From Owenia fusiformis (taxonomy: Eukaryota > Annelida > Polychaeta > Sabellida > Oweniidae), in contig CAIIXF020000009.1 of the NCBI GenBank assembly GCA_903813345.2, positions 38,433,759 to 38,497,758 on the forward strand: DNA of 64,000 nt, given 5' to 3'. Numbering within the stretch: the stretch's first letter is position 1; every line of letters starts with the position of its first letter. This document shows positions 3,501-43,765 of the stretch, piece after piece. Position numbers and translations under genes: made by a program. The notes under the pieces were generated by a model, which saw nothing but the letters and a program-made list of their open reading frames with translations, had not been told where the DNA came from and did no database searches.

Positions 3501-6500
3501 TACTTAATGCGTTTCAAACTGCTCAAGCTTCGTTCAGCCACGCAAGTGGATACTGGCAATGTTAGCAGCTGGACCAAACACGTGTAGACATCGGGGTAAA
3601 CTACAATGTCAACTGAACTGAAATGAAATAAAATTCTCTAATTATCAGTAGCTAACTGATTCAAAACAAAGAAATAATCGAGAACTTTTTTATTTATTAA
3701 CACGAGTCTTCATAGATCTCCTATCGATTTCTATCTCTTGGTAAAATATTTATTTTTCATCACAATTAATCAGGTAAATTTTATTTTTCCTTAAAATTTG
3801 AGAGTTCGCCTGGGCGTACTTGGCGTACACTTAGCTACGCCACTGTCACCTAATATGAAACCCTGGCATTTTGCCTTACAAGCATCAGGGAGTTGAAACA
3901 AGAGATTGAAGGCAAATGAGAGCCATTACACAAGATATCTGTGAGCGTATAATCAGAAAACTTCTGATCCGTTCAAAATTTGTAAAATAGCCGGAAAATC
4001 TTGACCATTTGGAATAGACCAATAAAAATTAGGTGAATGACAGAACATTGAACAAGGTGCCAAATACGACTTAAAACCCATACTGGATGACTGAGTTATT
4101 AAGATTTGATTGGGTTACCTTTCTTTGGATCACCCTGTATGTTCTGACATGTTCACATAATGTTTTGTTCGTGACAGGATTGTTTCACATGTTTCATCAA
4201 TGGAGTTGTGTTTGTATTCTTTCACATGTTATGTCAATGGAGTTGTGTTTGTATTCTTTCACATGTTATGTCAATGGAGTTGTGTTTGTATTCTTTCACA
4301 TGTTATGTCAATGGAGTTGTTTTTGTATTCTTTCACATGTTATGTCAATGGAGTTGTTTTTGTATTCTTTCACATGTTATGTCAATGGAGTTGTGTTTGT
4401 ATTCTTTCACATGTTATGTCAATGGAGTTGTGTTTGTATTCTTTCACATGTTATGTCAATAGAGTTGTGTTTGTATTCTTTCACATGTTATGTCAATGGA
4501 GTTGTGTTTGTATTCTTTCACATGTTATGTCAATAGAGTTGTGTTTGTATTCTTTCACATGTTATGTCAATGGAGTTGTGTTTGTATTCTTTCACATGTT
4601 ATGTCAATAGAGTTGTGTTTGTATTCTTTCACATGTTATGTCAATGGAGTTGTGTTTGTATTCTTTCACATGTTATGTCAATGGAGTTGTGTTTGTATTC
4701 TTTCACATGTTATGTCAATAGAGTTGTGTTTGTATTCTTTCACATGTTATGTCAATGGAGTTGTGTTTGTATTCTTTCACATGTTATGTCAATAGAGTTG
4801 TGTTTGTATTCTTTCACATGTTATGTCAATGGAGTTGTGTTTGTATTCTTTCACATGTTATGTCAATGGAGTTGTGTTTGTATTCTTTCACATGTTATGT
4901 CAATGGAGTTGTGTTTGTATTCTTTCACATGTTATGTCAATGGAGTTGTGTTTGTATTCTTTCACATGTTTTGTCAATGGAGTTGTGTTTGTATTCTTTC
5001 ACATGTTATGTCAATGGAGTTGTGTTTGTATTCTTTCACATGTTATGTCAATGGAGTTGTGTTTGTATTCTTTCACATGTTATGTCAATGGAGTTGTGTT
5101 TGTATTCTTTCACATGTTACATCAATGGAGTTGTGTTTGTATTCTTTCAGGGTCCCAGAGGGAAGAGGGGCAAGAAGGGGGTGAAAGGAACAAAAGGAAC
5201 ACAGGTATATTATAATATTATAGTGGGATAATTATTATAACTTTCACATATTATTCAAGATGCCAAAATGGTACATTGATTAATTTCTTTACCAGCATAA
5301 TGTTAAATTCAAACATAAGTGCAGTAGGCATACAGAGGTGGAAAGAAGTGGAGTTTTTCACCAATTGAATAAAACTTTGTGTTTACAGTAGTATCAGTTC
5401 AAACTGATGTGAGCTATTGTATGCCTATGTCATACTTGATGATCACTTGATTCTATTTATGAAAGGTTTAGGTAATATCATACAACAAACAAACAAATTG
5501 ATTACACTTTACAATTCAACCAATTCGTGTACAGCATCCAGATTCCAGATATTCACATTTTTCTATCGTAAAGTAGTTGCCTCTTTCTCTTGGTTGCACA
5601 TATAGATTGTTGATTTTAGGGCATTCCGGGTCTAGATGCACCATGTCCCGTAGGAAGTGATGGTCTTCCACTACCGGGTTGTGGGTGGAGACCCCAGAGG
5701 AAGGTAGTCTGATGACTCAATTATTGCCTGTTAGCATGGCAACCCAATATGCCCTGTTGGCATGGCAAGCACAAGAACCATAGAAGTGTTGGCATAGCAA
5801 CCATTAGTATTATAATGTGTTTGCATGACAACCACAAGCAGCATTGGCATGGCAACCATTGATGCTGACATGGCAACAATGAATCTAGAGATTGTACTAG
5901 TACAGTTTTCCCGTAATCACTGGCTAATAATGAAATGGCAACCTCATTATTAAAATCTCATTGGCATGATAGCAGTATCCTGACATTTTATATAGTTGTC
6001 CTGTTTTTTCAAATTTTTATGTTGCATGAATATTCCCAGATAATCATTCTTGCTTTAATCTTCAGTTAGTACAAGTCACAGAACAGTGAAGCATTTCTAA
6101 CAGTGTATGATTGACAAATATAAAAATTTGTCACTAAAACTTAGAATGATGAAATCATCGTGGATACCACTTTCTTTCCCATAGTTGCACCTTAAAATCT
6201 TTTGTAGGCCCAGCATGAGTTTTTCTTCTATATGAAGAAACCTTACCTCATTTGATTTTGCATGCTTGTAATATTTCAGCCTTTTTCAGTGAGAGCCCAC
6301 ATGGGGTTTGTTAATATACTGACTTACAGAAATAGACTGGAAACTCCTCTCAATTGCATGGTTTCATTCTACAAAAACAGCGATACCATTTCGTAGATTC
6401 CAAAACAACATAAGTAGATAAGGGGACAAATGATACCATTGGATCATTTAGGCTTAAAATCTCTATATTTATCAAAACTTTTTGTAAAGCCTTGAGTTTA

Positions 6501-10400: not shown

Positions 10401-10976
10401 ACAGGATATGACTATGCCTAAATGTCATAATGTACTATTAAATGCAAATGCATAGTTAGTATTTTATGAATAGTAGAATCACCTAGACATCCAGCTGACA
10501 CCTTAATATCTAGCTGATGAAATAAAAATCATGTTTTATTGGTTTGTTTTTGTAAACAGAGATGTATTGATGACTTTTCTGTGTTAAAAGCACATTCAGG
10601 ACCAGACATTTATAGACCTTGGGAAAAATAGTCATTGTTCTCATGCCTGTTTAACAAATTTTGAAGAAATATCTTATTTTCTAATATGTTTGTACAATTT
10701 AAAAGTGCTAGCTTCATGCTTATTTACTTTATTCCTTGCTGATTTTTCCCTTTGCTACTTAACTTAATTTTAGAGTTGAAGATGTGACTGGTATGACAAC
10801 AGTCTGTGTCAAGTCAACTCAATGTAGCAAATAGATGTAAGATATTTTTAAAGAAAATGCATTATTAGCCATTTCTTCAAATGACCAATAAAAATATACA
10901 CTGTACAGTGAACATGTATTGAATATGGGCACCAATATTAAGTGAAGCATTTGACATTTACACACTTTAAGGGACA
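7426..10976. other. Collagen 3' flank, no gene seen
   Basis: AT-rich sequence with a short ATTG run near 7803-7831 and a G-rich stretch near 8985-9010. Reading frames are short and lack family features. Nothing else is supportable. Confidence 0.6.
7959..7964 (+). terminator. Candidate polyadenylation signal of the collagen gene
   Basis: This is the first AATAAA downstream of the TAA at 7425, which would give a 3' UTR of about 550 nt. Later AATAAA motifs exist, so the actual site is unproven. Confidence 0.35.
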
Positions 10977-11555
10977 TTGTAATGAAATGGCTATTGATTA
11001 CTTAAAGGATGAACACTGTAATGAAATGACTATTGATAACTTAAAGGAATACTGTAATGAAATGGCTATTGATTACTTAAAGGAATACTGTACTAAAATG
11101 GCTATTGATTACTTAAATGAATACTGTAATAATATGGCTATTGATTACTTAAAGGAATACTGTAATAAAATGGCTATTGATTACTTAAAGGAATACTGTA
11201 ATCAAATGGCTATTGATTACTTAAAGGAATATTGTAATCAAATGGCTATTGATTACTTAAAGGAATATTGTTGTAATGAAATGGCTATTGATTACTAAAA
11301 GGAATACTGTAATGAAATGGCTATTGATTACTTAAAGGAATACTGTAATGAAATGGCTATTGATTACTTAAAGGAATACTGTAATGAAATGGCTATTGAT
11401 TACTTAAAGGAATACTGTAATGAAATGGCTATTGATTACTTAAAGGAATACTGTAATGAAATGGCTATTGATTACTTAAAGGAATACTGTAATGAAATGG
11501 CTATTGATTACTTAAAGGAATACTGTAATGAAATGGCTATTGATGATGAATGTAA
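10977..11555 (+). repeat. 36-bp minisatellite (about 16 units)
   Basis: The unit is CTGTAATGAAATGGCTATTG followed by ATTACTTAAAGGAATA. The 36-bp period is a multiple of 3, so one frame stays open as a 12-residue repeat (CNEMAIDYLKEY) over two stretches, 10942-11298 and 11317-11559, separated by a stop made by a variant unit. The first units vary, the last seven are identical. There is no conserved domain and no splice context, so it is treated as non-coding. Confidence 0.9.
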
Positions 11556-35500: not shown

Positions 35501-38500
35501 TTGTAAATTCTACTAAGTTTCATTGGTCTGTTTCAAATGACCATGATTTTATGGCTATTTTACACCAAAAATTTTAATAACAAAAGAGGATTTTCGGCAA
35601 AGGGAGTTTGCACGAGCCCCACAAACCCTCTCTTACTATGTCCATTCTTCTAAACTCTAGAGTTGTAAGTGTGGACATCAATATCTTTGAAATAGCTCCA
35701 AAAATAAAAGTTTGGGGATTCATATCGAGTGATTTTTGGCATGTTTCCTATTTTGAGCATGTTTTCTAAATGGCCATAGAATGAAAATAAGCCTTATAGA
35801 CAAACATAGAGAATAGAGAATACCCACTCCTTTTGCAACTTCACTGTAGCCTGTATCCCTTTTAAACGTGGTCACATGGTAGGGAAGAAGTACATGCATC
35901 TTTTTCCATTTAAAATATTATCATGTACATTGTATTTATATTTTTGATAATAGATGTAGATATTTACTGAAAGGCTTAATGTTTTGTAGGGTGTGGTAGA
36001 TGTGCTATGTGAAGCATGTGAATTACTCAAGTGGAAAACCCCCAGCAAAATACAAAAAGAAGCTATACCAGTATCTCTTGAAGGTTTGTTTACTCTTAGA
36101 TGTACATTGCTGCTTAATTACCAGTCTGACAACAGTTTGCCCTTTGCATAAATAGATATATGTAGTAGTACTATGTGTGATAATTCAATTCAATTCAATT
36201 CAATTTATTCATTCAAAATTACATCATACAACATTTCACCAATAACATGAAAAAGACACCTCAAGGGGCGTATATATTCCATGGGTCATAATTTTTAATA
36301 GTAATGTTTTAGTCATAGATCAAAAGCTAAATGAATCAAAATGAAAGAGAAAAATGGAAGCATAGATTATCATTGGTATTTACTGATAAGATCATTCTTT
36401 ATCAGTTTTTCGAATTTCTGAACATACTAAAGTCTATAGCCAGTGAGTTATATTGCATTCCTCCTCTAAACGCAATTGATTTTCGACCAGTTTCAGCTCT
36501 AAACCTTTTGATTGTTAAATTATATTTGTATCTAGTATCATGGGTGTGTATATCTGTTCTCTTTTGAAAAAAATGTTTTAAAATTAGGAAATGGAAAGTC
36601 TGCAGATTCTGTTACAGTTTTCTGCACAAAAGTGAGCATTTGAAATTTATATTTAATATCCATGCCCTTTGTATAAATAAATTCAGTGTATAATCCATGA
36701 ATCATCTCACATCAATCAACTTGTACAACGAGAGACTTGATGTGTGACCATCTTGTATATTCCAGGTAAGGATATCATAGGACTTGCAGAGACAGGCTCT
36801 GGTAAGACTGGGGCATTTGCTATCCCTATACTACAGGCATTGCTAGCAAATCCACAGAGATTGTTTGCCCTTGTCATGACACCCACTAGAGAACTTGCCT
36901 TCCAGATAAGTGAACAGTTTGAGGCACTGGGATCAACCATAGGCATAAAATGTGGTAAGTGGATATTGCATGCCTGATGTGATCGGCATGTGGTCATCTT
37001 TTAAAGTGTGAAACAGAGGTTAAAATATAGTACTAGGTTTTGTTGATTACTCAAAATTGTAATGCTACAACCAAGTTCATATGTTCTTCCTCTTTCACTT
37101 TGAAGAAGGAACTGATTCTGTTCATCAACTTTGGAGAATACATGAAAATATACTGGACCACATATTTTTATAATTTGAGATATATCTTTGTTCATTTCAG
37201 CGGTAATCGTAGGTGGTATAGACATGATGTCACAATCCCTGCTGTTGGCCAAGAAACCACATGTGGTTATCGGTAAGCATTGTTGTAAGGTTTTATGTGA
37301 CCACCAAAATGTGATGACATATTGTTACATTTGTTATGAGAGGTGTTTAGCCTTGGTGGTAAATGGTGACATTTTATGTGATATGCCTTGTCTAATTATA
37401 GAAGAGGCGAAATTAGCAGCACTAATACTTTTAGAATCGACAATAGTTTCCCAAGCTCATACAAAGTTTTATGATTCTTCATATTTGAGCTTGTGTATTT
37501 GGGTTCTACCTTCAGAGATAATTTGTCATTGTGGGATTCGTGGCCTGTGTCGTGAAAATAGATTTTTGGTCATCACTCGTCTCCAGAGGATTTAAAAAGT
37601 CTGGTGAAAAAGACCTGTCAGTGTGAACCATGCTTTATGGGGTTCATGGCCTGTTCTAGCCCTCTCAGGCATAGGGATTCATGGCCTGTACTAGCCCTCT
37701 CAGGCATAGGGATTCATGGCCTGTACTAGCCCTCTCAGGCATAGGGATTCATGGCCTGTACCAGCCTTCTAAGGTGTTAAATAACCAGAGACTCTTAATG
37801 GAGTCCTTGTGATGCCACAGTCCTACAAGTTCAATTTTAAGTTATTTAATGAAACATTTCATAATGCAATATTTTAAACATTACATAAAAAGAACACCTG
37901 ATTGAGTGTTTTAAATCAAAAAGAAAAAGAAAAATGGAATCACGAAGAATCGTTAGTGTTGATTAACAAGATCATTTATCAAACTGTGTAATGTGCTTTG
38001 TCTTTTAAAGTCTATTGCTAGAGAAGTAATATGATTGCACTTCTCATAGCAATTGACCCAGTTTTAATAAACAGGACTAAGAAAAGAAAAATATGAAAAT
38101 CTCTCTGGTAGGGAAATGTAATCAAAGGACCTGTTACTCAGGTTCTATTGGTTAATATTAGCTCTTTGTTGTTGTTTGTATTGATAATTAAATATTGTCA
38201 AAATAAAAAGCAAACAATAACATAGTATTCGTATAATTAGATTACAGATGTGACACTTCAATTAGTGTTTGTTTGGAGTAACATTTTTAAATAATTGATC
38301 AAATAATTTTTGGTATTATTAGAACTTAGAATAATATTTAATGAAATTAATTTTATTCACCTCACCTTCTATTACCATCATGTTAATGTCCTGTATTCTA
38401 TTACCATCATGTTAATGTCCTGTATTCTATTTCCATCATGTTAATGTCCTGTATTCTATTACCATCATGTTAATGCCCTGTATTCTATTACCATCATGTT

Positions 38501-41500
38501 AATGCCCTGTATTCTATTACCATCATGTTAATGCCCTGTATTCTATTACCATCATGTTAATGCCCTGTATTCTATTACCATCATGTCAATGTCCTGGATT
38601 CTATGACCATCATGTTAATGTCCTGTATTCTATTTCCATCATGTTAGTGTCCTGTATTCTATTTCCATCATGTTAATGCCCTGTATTCTATTACCATCAT
38701 GTCAATGTCCTGGATTCTATGACCATCATGTTAATGTCCTGTATTCTATTTCCATCATGTTAGTGTCCTGTATTCTATTTCCACCATCAATGTCCTGTAT
38801 TCTATTTCCACCATGTTGATGTTTGTTTGTTTGTTTGCCCTGTATTCTATTACCATCATGTTAGTGCCCTGTATTCTATTTCCATCATGTTAATGTCCTG
38901 TATTCTATTTCCATCATGTTAATGCCCTGTATTTTATTACCATTATGTTAGTGCCCTGTATTCTATTTCCATCATGTTAATGCCCTGTATTCTTTTTCCA
39001 TCATGTTAATGCCCTGTATTCTATTTCCATCATGTTATTGCCCTGTATTCCATTACCATCATTTTAATGCCCTGTATTCTAATATCATCATGTTAATGCC
39101 CTGTATTCTATTTTTGCAGCCACACCAGGAAGATTAGTTGACCACCTAGAGAACACAAAGGGTTTCAATTTGAGATCTCTGAAATATTTGGTAAGTGCAA
39201 TTTCTTTGTTATATTTAAGATGCTCTTTTCATCCAGTGCAGTCAGTCGATCCACAAAAATCAACTGTGAAGAGTGAACGTTTTGTTTAGAAGTGGGGATG
39301 TCTTAAAAAGCACATGGGTTGATTTATTGACCCATATAAAGCCATCAGAAATGTTTCTAGGTCATGGATGAAGCTGACAGGATACTTAATATGGATTTTG
39401 AAGCTGAGCTGGATAAAATATTGAAAGTTCTCCCGAGGGAGCGTAACACATATCTCTACTCTGCCACAATGACCAAAAAGGTACAAAAGTTACAAAGGGC
39501 CTCTCTCAAGGACCCAGTGAAGGTGGAGGTATCCAGTAAATATCAGACAGTCGACAAACTTCAACAGAGTTACCTGTTCATCCCTGTCAAATTTAAGGTG
39601 AGTGAATAGCATGTACTGTCAACTTGTATTCATTCTAAACTAACCTGTCAAAAGTCATATAAAGAAAAAAAAATATAAAGTTTACAACAGCTCTGTTGCT
39701 TTCACCATCAAGTGAAACATAATATGGATTGTGTTTTCGGGAGGAGAAATAAACAAATCATGTCTCAACTAACCATATATTACAGGACTGCTACTTGGTT
39801 TACATTCTCAATGAATTGGCTGGCAACAGTTTCATGGTCTTCTGTAGTACCTGTGCCAACACACAGAGGGTAGCACTGATGCTTCGTAACCTTGGATTCA
39901 CAGCAATACCACTTCATGGCCAAATGTCACAGGTAAACTTTTTCCAAAATTATAAGTACACTCAGTAATATCTGTCCAATTCAATTGCCTAGTGGCCAAA
40001 AGTGTTCAGATTGGCAGATGTTCAGATTTCATGTTCTTTACATGTGAAAATCTATGGCAGATTCTTAAAGATAGGACTAGAAAACGATCACATTGAAGAA
40101 TGTTCAGATTAAAGAGGTATCTGGATATACAGGTTTTACTGTGATGTTTGACTTGTATTATTTTATTCAGTAATTGCTCCTCATTTAGGAACATAGTTTA
40201 AAGTGGAAAACTTCTTTTATAGACTAGGTGCAAGAAAAATTAATTCAAAGTCAAAGTCAAAGTGATATCATATTTCAAATCTACATATAAAATTACACCA
40301 AAAATGTGGTTTTAAAACGTGTTTATCAACTGCGAAAATGTAATTTTCTTTGAAAGTGGGATCTCTAGGTGAAATATCTTTTCTTGTATTGGACAGATAA
40401 CATTTTCTTTTAGTGGACATATTTTAATTTGCATAACTATCAGATGAATAAGGGTAATATGAACATAGAACCACTAAATCTGGTGAATACTGGTATTCAA
40501 GGGAACTTTCTGATCTGACCCGAATTAGCCACCTGGTGATGAAACTAGTAATTACCTACTCCCATCTGGGTTACTGAAGCACCTGAGTGTATTTTGTAAT
40601 ATGTGAAATGTTAGATGACCAGAGAAATAATATGAAATTGCTTGAAATAAACCATATGATTCTCAGATCTCAGATCACAGTTATCTTCTTCATGGTTTCA
40701 TATATCACTGTTACAAAATGGGTTATCTGGTACTTCCTAGAAATATCAAAATATGGGCAAAAATGAATTAAATTACTTTTAATGGTTTTTTTTTTTTTTC
40801 AGTTTATTTATTTCAATTTCCTTGCTATTGATATACAAAAGTATGCCTTTGTTAACTTAATAACATTATCGGCATAGTAAATATTAAAAATATAATACAG
40901 GAAATACAAAATACAAAAACCACGTAGTATGTTCAGTCTATATGTATGCTTGCTCCCCATCCCACCCATAAGGTTCCCAAAGGAATTTAGAATGTTTCAC
41001 TGGCTGTTTAAAACTGTGATTGCTGTTGAGACATAGTGAGCCACGATTTCAATAATTTTGCTATTCATCACATCACTAAGGTTGGTATCCCCATACAAAA
41101 GTGTATCTGATTTCTTAGAGATTGTTAAATTTCTGAAATCTGGCAGACATTCCAGTTCGTCGAGTCCTGCAAGAAGCAATTCCCTTTCATTTATGAGCAG
41201 TGGACATTTGATTAGAAAATGAGAAGTGGTTTGATGAGCTGCACCACATGGACATTTGGGATCATTAATTGTGGCAAAATTGTGGGCATGTAAATGGCTA
41301 TTAAGCAAGAGTCCAGCTCTAAGTCTGTTGAAAGTAATTTCAGTTTGTCTTGGCATAGTATACTCCATTTTGGATGTGGGTAAGGATGCATGGCTCCTTT
41401 GCTTCCTGACTGATCTTTTAAATCTTGAGATTGGCTGCCCAACTCGGATAGTTGGTGGAAGCCCATTCCAAGCTGAGATGGCACTAAAGATTGTAGATTT

Positions 41501-43765
41501 TTGGGTTGAGACACTAGTATGTAATGGAATCTGATAATCTGGCTGATCTCTCAGCCTTCTAGTGTGAACAATTTCATAAGTTCTCACCACATCACAGATG
41601 AAGGGAGGTAAAGCATTAAAGCGTGCCTTAAAAATAAAAATTTTTAAGTGCTCATCTCTTCTCGATGCCAGCTTTTTCCAATTTAGAGAAGAAAGTACCT
41701 TATCAGAATTTGACCCATGAATAGCACCTGAAACTAGGCAGGCTGCTCTATAGTGCAGACTTTCGAGAGCTTGGAGCTTAAGAGCTGATGCTTTATTGTA
41801 AATTATGTCACAGTAATCTAAGTGGGGTATGAAGTAAGCATTGTAAATTGTTTCAAGATGTTTGCTTGATAACTTTTTACTAAGAGCCTTCAGTGGCCTC
41901 ATTAAAATTGTCAATTTGTTAATCAGTTGGTCAATGTGGGCATTAAAGTTTAAGTGTTTATCTAACACTATTCCTAAGTGCTTATGGGTATCTGTCATTG
42001 GTATTTGCTTTTAATGGTTTCAGTGATTCAAATATTTTCAACAGTTAAATTGGCTGTTCCAGTCCATTCCATCTTCCTTTTATACTCAGTTGTCCCCTTT
42101 AGGCATAACATCAAGATATACCTGAACTTGAAGTAACTCCTCCATAAACCTTGTATGTTTATGTTACTGTATTTCAGTCAAAGCGACTAGGATCCCTGAA
42201 CAAGTTTAAAGCAAAGAACAGATCTATTCTCATAGCAACAGATGTGGCCAGCAGGTATGTGCTAACAGAAAAGTATTGAACGATTATGGGTTTCCCCATC
42301 CCCCTGAAATAGGGTGGAGACTTGATTTAAGATTGAAGAGTTTAATATGTTTAAAGTAAAAATCAAAATGCAAGATCAATTTATTAGTTACAAATATTGC
42401 ATTTAAGGTTGAACTATGAATGAACTGTTAATGTAATAAAAGGCAATAGCAAACTATTCATCTGTATTGAGAATATTCCAGGGGAATAACCTTATTTTAT
42501 TTTGCAGAGGTTTGGATATCCCTCATGTAGATGTTGTGATCAACCTAGACATCCCCACCCACTCCAAGGACTACATACATAGGGTTGGAAGAACAGCCAG
42601 GGCAGGTAGATCGGGGAAGGCTATCACTGTTGTATCACAGTAAGTTTTTTTCAAAAGATTTTGTTGCTTCTAATTCATGTAAGTAACGATTATCATAATG
42701 TATAAGATCAAAATCAAATCAAGACCAAAAATGGAGAGAAAAATGATAAATGGAATAAAGATCGGTTACATGAATATTCGACTATAGATTGTAATGAATA
42801 TATGTTTTCATGATATGAACATGGTCCCATTGAATAGTAGAGTGTACATTTGAATAAATGAATATTTGTTTAATAAAATCAGAACAAACTTACAAAACGT
42901 ATTTCTATATGACTGTATCAAAGTCATATGGGAAATTGTAGTTTTACAATGTAATATAATTTCAGATATGATGTGGAGTTATTTCAAAGAATTGAACATT
43001 TAATTGGCAAAAAGTTACCCTTATATGAAACAGAGGAACAGGAAGTGATGTCATTAATGGAGCGTGTGACAGAGGCTCAGAGATATGCTAAGATGGTATG
43101 TACCGGGGTGCAGTTCCGCAATATTATTTCCAGATGTCGTTATCCTGGTCCATTTGTCATTCATTTTTGAAAGTATAAAAATGACATTTTGTAACTCATA
43201 ATTGAAATAGTAAGACATGTTCTTTATTTAACTGGAATAATATTCACATTTGATAAGACAACTTGTAATGCCATGATAAATAGATTTTTATTGTTTTATG
43301 TCCTGCCATCTTTGGTACACCCGTCAGTTGGTTTATTTGCCAGATTTATGATGTCATAGGTTATACTCGTAGTTTGTACATAGCCATTAAAAAAAATGCT
43401 GACATTTTTTTCTCAAAATAAGCAGTACATTAATCCTATTTCTGCATAATGTATCAGGCCCGTAGCCAGGGGGCTTGTGCACCCCCCCCTCTGACCAAAA
43501 ATTCTTTAAATCATGCAGTTTTTCGCCATTTTGAGCATTCTTTACATGATCAGGATTTACTAACATGATACATACATCTCTTAACTTTCAGGAGATGAAT
43601 GAGAGCCATGGTAAGAGAGGGAAAAGAAAGCCTGATGAAGACGACACTGAAGAATCTACAGGTTTTAGAAAGAAAATGAACTCTGGGAAAATGCACTCAG
43701 GAAAAACGAACTCTGGTGGAAAATCAAACTCTGGTGGTAAATTCAAAGGGAGGAAAAAATATTAA
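32589..43765 (+). CDS. DDX47: DEAD-box RNA helicase DDX47 (Rrp3), complete
   Basis: Eleven coding exons: 32589-32660, 35990-36083, 36766-36954, 37201-37272, 39120-39190, 39361-39597, 39786-39932, 42178-42254, 42508-42639, 42966-43095 and 43592-43765. All have AG/GT borders, all phases agree and the total is 464 aa (human 455). Motifs: Phe21 and Gln46 of the Q motif; Walker A AETGSGKT 63-70; PTREL 95-99; TPGR 144-147; DEAD 169-172; SAT 200-202; TDVASRGLD 315-323; [11 protein letters not shown] 344-354. Near-identity with vertebrate DDX47 in all core stretches ([37 protein letters not shown]). The tail is basic, with repeated NSGGK-type units ending FKGRKKY. Family role: an ATP-dependent nucleolar RNA helicase for 18S rRNA maturation (yeast Rrp3). 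Introns carry TIR elements (intron 1), a LINE-like repeat (2 and 4), a minisatellite ending at the exon 5 acceptor (intron 4) and an antisense LINE (intron 7). Confidence 0.97.
32932..33040 (+). repeat. Inverted paralogue of 33961-34740 (empty-site copy)
   Basis: From 32984 on, GAGTAAGTGTTCTGTGAAGG and the following 35 bases match, in reverse complement, the two flanks of the TIR element at 33985-34700. In translation it gives [20 protein letters not shown] and in the inverted copy [16 protein letters not shown], so the source may once have been coding. I do not recognise a family. It lies in DDX47 intron 1 and is not in frame with DDX47. Confidence 0.6.
33159..33564 (+). mobile_element. Long-TIR MITE, copy 1
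   Basis: The inverted arms are about 135 bp, starting GGCTCAGCTGGAAAGTA and ending TTTTCCAGCTGTACC, flanked by TTTA on the left and TTAA on the right (33565-33568). A TTAA target would suit a piggyBac- or Kolobok-type family. The inner ends carry CTTGCTTTTTTCAGGAAAGT and its complement. The unique centre is about 135 bp. A second copy in the opposite orientation ends at 56580. Confidence 0.75.
33985..34700. mobile_element. TIR element of about 716 bp with TA target
   Basis: The ends are AGATTTTCGACATCTAAAAA and TTTTTAGATGTCGAAAATCT; similarity continues for about 35 bp. The flanks rejoin as ...AAAGCC|TAGTTGATACC..., exactly the order in the reverse complement of the empty copy at 32984-33038, with TA (mutated to AA on the left) as target duplication. 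This suggests a Tc1/mariner-type non-autonomous element. A frame running through the right end (34920-34612, minus) crosses host and element sequence and is not a gene. Confidence 0.75.
35406..35570 (+). repeat. Solo end of the CAGGGTG mariner-type family
   Basis: CAGGGTGGGCCAAAAAAGG followed by AACTCAGTCATC and TTTCATTGGTCTGTTTCAAA matches the left and right arms of 2693-4137. No partner end is seen nearby. In DDX47 intron 1. Confidence 0.65.
36184..36500 (-). repeat. Interspersed repeat family B (probable LINE 3' end), copy 1
   Basis: It starts at a CAATT run (36184-36210), the kind of short-repeat tail seen at LINE 3' ends in antisense, followed by sequence related to 37850-38090 (GATCATT...TATCA, AAAGTCTATNGC, GCAATTGA). 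It lies in DDX47 intron 2. No reverse transcriptase remnant. Confidence 0.45.
37640..37770 (+). repeat. 35-bp tandem repeat (about 4 units)
   Basis: Unit TTCATGGCCTGTACTAGCCC followed by TCTCAGGCATAGGGA; the first and last units are divergent. In DDX47 intron 4. Confidence 0.85.
37850..38110 (-). repeat. Interspersed repeat family B, copy 2
   Basis: Diverged relative of 36184-36500, sharing GAAAAATGGAA, AACAAGATCATTTATCA and AAAGTCTATTGCTAG landmarks. In DDX47 intron 4. Confidence 0.4.
38372..39110 (+). repeat. 29-bp minisatellite abutting a DDX47 splice acceptor
   Basis: About 25 copies of TGTATTCTATTACCATCATG + TTAATGCCC, with variants (TTTCC/TTACC, GTCC/GCCC) in blocks that show repeated amplification, and one GTTT microsatellite insertion near 38822. 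The last unit runs into CCCTGTATTCTATTTTTGCAG, the acceptor of exon 5 at 39120. The unit core is related to that of the 37-bp array in the collagen intron. Confidence 0.95.
40238..40575 (+). repeat. Interspersed repeat family A, copy 2
   Basis: Shares GTGAAATATCTTTTCTTGTA, TTGGACAGATAACATTTTCT and TTTGCATAACTAT with 62622-62915 and, inverted, 25130-25490; also CACCTGGTGATGAAACTAGT with copy 1. In DDX47 intron 7. Confidence 0.7.
40789..42007 (-). mobile_element. 5'-truncated LINE (non-LTR retrotransposon) in DDX47 intron 7
   Basis: Minus-strand element: truncated open frame from 42007, 3' UTR 40996-40800 with an AATAAATAAA signal, and an A-tail (T run 40789-40799 on the plus strand). It is flanked by a perfect 13-bp target duplication CTTTTAATGGTTT (40776-40788 and 42008-42020). 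The frame, about 336 codons, starts inside the reverse transcriptase ([18 protein letters not shown]), passes the thumb region ([46 protein letters not shown]) and ends with a C-terminal [18 protein letters not shown] (Cys-Cys-His-Cys) motif. The layout suits the CR1/L2/Jockey group. The unbroken frame and perfect duplication mean a recent insertion. It is antisense to DDX47. Confidence 0.88.
40997..42007 (-). CDS. Reverse transcriptase C-terminal fragment of the LINE
   Basis: The frame is open from the truncation point to a stop at 40997; the Met at 41998 is internal, not a start. It lacks the endonuclease and the YxDD catalytic core, so it cannot be active. The C-terminal Cys/His motif (CPCG...H...CP) is typical of non-LTR ORF2 ends. 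Confidence 0.85.
   Translation of the reverse strand, partial: QIPMTDTHKHLGIVLDKHLNFNAHIDQLINKLTILMRPLKALSKKLSSKHLETIYNAYFIPHLDYCDIIYNKASALKLQALESLHYRAACLVSGAIHGSNSDKVLSSLNWKKLASRRDEHLKIFIFKARFNALPPFICDVVRTYEIVHTRRLRDQPDYQIPLHTSVSTQKSTIFSAISAWNGLPPTIRVGQPISRFKRSVRKQRSHASLPTSKMEYTMPRQTEITFNRLRAGLLLNSHLHAHNFATINDPKCPCGAAHQTTSHFLIKCPLLINERELLLAGLDELECLPDFRNLTISKKSDTLLYGDTNLSDVMNSKIIEIVAHYVSTAITVLNSQ
43458..43500 (+). repeat. Possible solo hAT end
   Basis: CAGGCCCGTAGCCAGGGGGC followed by a C-run resembles the CAGNGGCGTAGCCAGG ends of hAT elements. No opposite end is seen in DDX47 intron 10. Confidence 0.35.

Follow-up and report, generated by a model that had tools for sequence, protein, structure and literature searches.

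The units of minisatellites, also known as variable-number tandem repeats (VNTRs), are by definition 10–100 bp in length. A minisatellite-like type of tandem array, the mirage, was reportedly first described by Canestro et al. in 2002. In mirages, exon-intron boundaries are themselves repeated in tandem; such arrays occur in the amphioxus gene Adh3, in the globin genes BflGb6 and BflGb9 and in the gene for troponin C, with similar arrays in PGBD5, and are reported to be unstable in copy number and to leave splicing undisturbed (PMC3087553, PMC3902484). Here we analyze a 64,000-nt stretch of the genome of the annelid Owenia fusiformis (assembly GCA_903813345.2, contig CAIIXF020000009.1, positions 38,433,759–38,497,758; hereafter the window), in which a 29-bp minisatellite in the DDX47 gene (array A2) and a 37-bp minisatellite in a collagen gene (array A1) both stop at a splice acceptor. 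The DDX47 array is probably a locally born intronic minisatellite whose growth by units has been bounded by selection, and its likeness to the collagen array a product of a common polypyrimidine word and chance.

The DDX47 array runs into a genuine splice acceptor

Array A2 occupies positions 38366–39119 of the window (plus strand) and makes up about 41% of the length of a 1847-nt DDX47 intron (37273–39119, plus strand) whose limits are set by exon joins and acceptor scoring. Tandem Repeats Finder calls it in two parts, 38367–38822 (29 bp, 15.8 copies, score 737) and 38836–39113 (29 bp, 9.6 copies, score 451), which are separated by a TTTG-repeat insertion. When the array is cut by unit, a partial first unit is followed by 24 head-to-tail units, 22 of them 29 bp in length, one of 27 bp and one of 45 bp. 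The last of these (38796–38840, plus strand) carries the (TTTG)n insertion and divides A2 in two for the repeat finder; here, a microsatellite has expanded inside a single minisatellite unit. A segment of 24 nt taken from the unit finds 23 matches in the window when up to three mismatches are allowed, all of them within A2, where none would be expected. Furthermore, three successive units reappear identically at an offset of 116 bp, and identity at +116 amounts to 94%.

The array closes with an 18-nt partial unit, TGTATTCTATTTTTGCAG, which constitutes the polypyrimidine tract and the AG of the intron and leads straight into the exon that starts at position 39120. The 3' edge of the repeat proper (39113) lies 6 nt before the exon, within the polypyrimidine tract: the last unit agrees for 12 nt and then turns into TTGCAG. 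At the intron end the unit would go on as CCATCATG, while the exon there reads CCACACC. A TTAAT-like word and a run rich in pyrimidines are present in every unit; AG is absent from the consensus.

The acceptor is firmly placed by homology. The upstream exon (37201–37272, plus strand; 24 amino acids) joins in frame to the exon right after A2 (39120–39190, plus strand; 24 amino acids), which is followed by a GT donor. Joined across the acceptor, the exons match human DDX47 (3ber) in one stretch (E 2.1e-54, query residues 1–107) and the Pfam family DEAD (E 1.2e-20). Scored with a weight matrix, the acceptor before position 39120 ranks first among the 72 AG sites in 37290–39120, with 10.1 bits; the other four AG sites inside A2 reach at most 2.8 bits. 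The original prediction, made from the sequence alone, of about 25 units of 29 bp ending at a DDX47 3' splice site was therefore correct, with 24 units and a partial one at a verified acceptor.

The same intron holds a second minisatellite, unrelated to A2, that was called by Tandem Repeats Finder at 37639–37774 (plus strand; 35 bp, 3.9 copies). The GC content in the window is 30–35%. On the minus strand of the DDX47 region, a 337-amino-acid open frame (40997–42010) looks by eye like the terminal part of a reverse transcriptase.

The DDX47 and collagen arrays share short words

Array A1 (4179–5149, plus strand) consists of 25 full units with partial ends and is called by Tandem Repeats Finder as a 37-bp repeat of 26.2 copies. 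It closes with TGTATTCTTTCAG right before a collagen exon of 54 bp (5151–5204, plus strand; 18 amino acids, then GT); this short query scores 21.3 bits against the Pfam family Collagen, under the cut-off of 27.2. As had been proposed, both arrays end at real acceptors and have about 25 copies each (26.2 in A1, 24 in A2), and the words said to be shared, TGTATTCT and CATGTTA, are present in both units. In a different part of the window, a 36-bp minisatellite of 16 copies (10964–11544) has neither end within reach of an acceptor-like site in the array-end test described below.

How far the two units resemble each other depends on a single word. Their best circular alignment has a score of 24, which is matched by 38 of 5000 dinucleotide shuffles when whole units of this one hand-picked pair are compared; by our estimate this is unremarkable, given that about 10 pairs of arrays in the window, in two orientations, were there to choose from. 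With TGTATTCT taken out, the likeness of the remainder is matched by 176, 367, and 515 of 5000 shuffles for three forms of the A2 unit; without this word the two units are thus alike at a near-chance level. Aligned to A1 and A2, the units of 17 other arrays, 13 of which had come from the search for TGTATTCT, score between 8 and 24, with the array at locus L010 reaching 24.

As an exact pattern, the tandem core TGTATTCT...CATGTTA has 38 placements in the 498-Mb genome, all of which fall within these two arrays (A1, 24; A2, 14); the reversed pattern, used as a control, gave none on the forward and one on the reverse strand. Genome searches queried with the A1 or A2 arrays, in which very common words are skipped, likewise returned self-matches only. 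A dispersed repeat family was rejected on the strength of these two kinds of searches, and with it the suggestion of an intron-derived repeat family that brings its own 3' splice signal.

Of 49 acceptors placed by homology, 4 have the word TGTATT[CT]T within their last 32 nt (binomial P 2.2e-4 against a background of 0.6%), an enrichment that is inflated and in part built in since the acceptor caller rewards pyrimidines. Exact TGTATTCT is found in one of the 49, against 0.07% in the background, which was formed by 6000 32-mers from myosin loci. Judged from these words, the core common to A1 and A2 would most simply reflect a polypyrimidine word toward which acceptors of this genome tend, together with chance, rather than common descent.

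Arrays and acceptors in samples of the genome

We collected 70 exons by Pfam match (30 myosin exons in ranked order, 20 kinesin and 20 DEAD exons), some of which are neighbors in one gene or derive from overlapping loci. After 21 acceptor and 24 donor calls with low or missing scores had been dropped at thresholds set by ourselves, 49 acceptors and 46 donors remained. The kinesin and DEAD exons were picked by hand from the upper part of their lists, leaving aside matches in frames that were long or rich in stops as well as the DDX47 gene of the window, and kinesin mirage copies stand lower in the list; consequently, the known cases are missing from this sample. These are the DDX47 exon after A2 (one of 52 DEAD matches), a tyrosine-kinase exon (locus L039, from a kinase list of 158 matches), and 18 of the 144 kinesin matches, which are copies of one mirage. 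Within the sample, no tandem repeat lies in the last 50 nt before any of the 49 acceptors (upper 95% bound 5.9%), and tandem-repeat coverage climbs to 8% at 350–399 nt upstream. Downstream of donors, tandem repeats cover 3% of the first 50 nt and 12% of positions 350–399, and arrays start 13 nt (L104) and 23 nt (L052) after a donor.

We also asked the question from the side of the arrays. Minisatellites are dense in this genome: 205.7 kb of sequence, with the window included and about 13 kb of overlap, yielded 29 arrays, of which 27 are distinct. Acceptor-like sites were found near 3 of the 48 array ends tested, against 5% of random positions, which were taken on one strand only. Two of the three are the known ends of A1 and A2, and the third, in L074, is unverified. 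Among the 24 array rows outside the window, none was verified at an acceptor besides a kinesin array (L081), whose 3' end lies too near the end of its locus for the array-end test. In these small samples, no enrichment of array ends at acceptors over random positions was seen.

As a tandem pattern, TGTATTCT is placed 195 times on the forward and 202 times on the reverse strand; for the reversed pattern these numbers are 47 and 189. Among the placements listed, which come from three contigs, there are 13 distinct arrays, and the 3' ends of 12 were read (all but a long array at L010). One of these abuts an acceptor (L040), one spans an acceptor (L039), one stops 35 nt short (L041), and one stops about 97 nt short through degenerate units (L006); for the other eight, no convincing acceptor was seen by eye in about 210 nt. 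Because the word is itself enriched at acceptors, this set was dropped as evidence for enrichment. Inspection by eye of a list of 106 p450 matches revealed no evenly spaced repeated exon.

Other loci with arrays at or across acceptors

Among the 12 TGTATTCT arrays read at their 3' ends, the layout of the DDX47 array recurs in a GUF1/LepA locus, identified by a partial lepA match (E 8.5e-27), where a 29-bp array of 6.7 copies abuts an acceptor and ends in TGTATTCTTTGTTTTAG before the exon. Three other loci contain arrays that cross the junction. In the tyrosine-kinase locus L039 (reverse complement, 1058–1627; PF07714, E 2.3e-17), a 52-bp unit present in about 11 copies takes in the acceptor together with the first part of the exon. 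A kinesin locus (L076; G000:C2:23265900-23269900, minus strand) carries 17.9 copies of a 159-bp unit made up of acceptor and exon start that are 97% alike. Its consensus unit runs into an in-frame stop, and in the stretches examined the last copy alone goes on to a donor-like GTGGGT. In the second kinesin locus (L081, 755–1119), 3.9 copies of a 93-bp unit extend across the acceptor of an exon encoding YANRAKNIKNKPK, and the repeated part of the protein overlaps the part that is repeated in L076.

These two forms of array differ in the acceptors on offer. Intron-only arrays have one good AG apiece, whereas in the junction-spanning arrays of the kinase and the second kinesin the acceptors of the copies rival the real one: with the real site counted, 9 sites lie within 2 bits of it in the former and 3 in the latter. 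The corresponding number for L076 is 39, although the scores there are low (4.3, against 7.4 for the tenth percentile of the training set). In L076, about 18 copies of acceptor and exon start precede one apparent donor.

Two others of the TGTATTCT arrays come close to an acceptor. The first stops 35 nt short of a Pcf11-like exon (PF11526, 22.7 bits, under the cut-off of that family), and the second stops about 97 nt short of an exon in L006 that was recognized by eye and has no Pfam match. A 51-bp array lies downstream of the junction-spanning array in the kinase locus. Separate from these arrays, a myosin-head exon (profile positions about 18–84) is present in twelve listed copies at G000:C9:37986009-37994334, spaced irregularly at intervals of about 0.3 to 1.9 kb; these copies are perhaps mutually exclusive exons.

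Origin of the DDX47 array

If the DDX47 array was born locally, a segment of about 29 nt that lay in the final 45 nt or so of the intron and took in the beginning of the polypyrimidine tract would have been duplicated in tandem. The array may then have grown through unequal exchange or replication slippage, as the identical recurrence of three units 116 bp further on would suggest, and the copy on the exon side would have stayed cut where the functional TTGCAG starts. Selection against changes in the AG or in the exon could account for this exon-side limit. Since the consensus unit lacks an AG, the intron retains one strong acceptor, and splicing need not have changed. As far as our searches reached, the A2 unit is private to its locus. 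Moreover, simple arithmetic extends about 27 distinct arrays per 193 kb to an estimated 70,000 or so in the genome, and if around 1% of these are assumed to lie at acceptors by chance, hundreds of cases like that of DDX47 would be expected.

Several observations weigh against an origin by chance at this site. The control with reversed or complemented sequence gave no array end at an acceptor-like site against the three observed, which argues against a pure-chance reading of the array ends. Two of the five merged arrays in the window end at true acceptors, many for random placement, and with L081, which spans one, 3 of the 27 distinct arrays touch an acceptor. The exon and array-end samples are too small to register a modest enrichment, and speak neither for nor against one. 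Finally, two arrays 34 kb apart share a core that the search met at no other place in the genome; local transfer of sequence could also account for this.

The strongest competitor of a local, chance origin holds that intron 3' ends are a preferred substrate of tandem amplification, for instance through replication- or transcription-linked slippage at pyrimidine tracts, and that they give rise recurrently to acceptor-locked arrays of the intron-only or the junction-spanning type. Six loci at which arrays abut or span acceptors (DDX47, collagen, GUF1/LepA, the tyrosine kinase, and the two kinesins) speak in its favor, as do the near misses at the Pcf11-like exon and in L006, and both kinesin cases were met without a search for arrays. 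We nevertheless consider it rather unlikely: repeats are absent from the last 50 nt before the sampled acceptors and their coverage grows with distance, the 3 of 48 array ends near acceptor-like sites compare with 5% of random positions, and the loci found via a pyrimidine word enriched at acceptors (GUF1, the kinase, L006 and the Pcf11-like locus) form a biased sample. As to the recurrent process envisaged in the original prediction, the layout is not unique, being seen abutting in GUF1/LepA and spanning in the kinase and the two kinesins; an enrichment at acceptors is not supported by our small samples. There is an outside chance that amplification of intron 3' ends is recurrent here and has produced a graded series that begins with arrays confined to the intron (DDX47, collagen, GUF1) and extends to junction-spanning ones with about 18 near-identical acceptors before a single donor (kinesin). 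If true, this series would offer natural experiments on how the spliceosome settles on a single acceptor, and new introns would have a source beyond amphioxus.

It is very improbable that A1 and A2 share a source in a single repeat or mobile segment, equipped with a 3' splice signal, which moved within the region and was amplified twice. The common order of TGTATTCT and CATGTTA, the shuffle result for whole units, and the confinement of the core to two arrays 34 kb apart would fit such an origin, but the likeness is limited to short words, recedes without TGTATTCT, and is accompanied by no dispersed copies in the genome searches. Least credible of all is a role of A2 as a functional splicing element, in which polypyrimidine and branch-site-like units would tune the use of the acceptor and copy number would be under selection. 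The composition of the unit, pyrimidine-rich with its TTAAT-like word and devoid of an AG in the consensus, would be compatible with this idea; the rarity of repeats near acceptors in our sample instead points to a constraint against repeats there. Local birth, with growth bounded by selection and a resemblance to the collagen array due to a common word and chance, remains our preferred explanation for A2.

Comparison with mirages and ordinary minisatellites

The literature searched, mostly at title level, yielded no report of such arrays for annelids and none that treats them as a class in general. The original prediction knew of no named element of this kind; this does not apply to the junction-spanning form, which has been published as mirages (PMC3087553, PMC3902484). 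The kinase and kinesin loci match the description of amphioxus mirages, so that a second animal genome with mirage-like arrays has come to light. The DDX47 and collagen arrays resemble mirages in that they are minisatellite-like and located at an exon-intron junction of ordinary genes. However, the amphioxus unit crosses the boundary and includes exon sequence, whereas the units of the DDX47 and collagen arrays stop before the AG; holding no exon sequence, these two arrays fall outside the mirage description. Nor do several copies carry the splice signal in A2, whose other four AG sites are weak beside the single strong one.

With ordinary intronic minisatellites and VNTRs, on the other hand, A2 shares its head-to-tail arrangement of 24 copies of a 29-bp unit, high identity, block repetition and restriction to one locus; block repetition may, indirectly, bear on variation in copy number between individuals. 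Position is the sole difference. The DDX47 array is in itself of little consequence, a minisatellite in which a functional splice tract happens to lie. Unusual in location but otherwise apparently ordinary, it does not look like a new splicing element, and it belongs to a genome that also has arrays of the mirage type.

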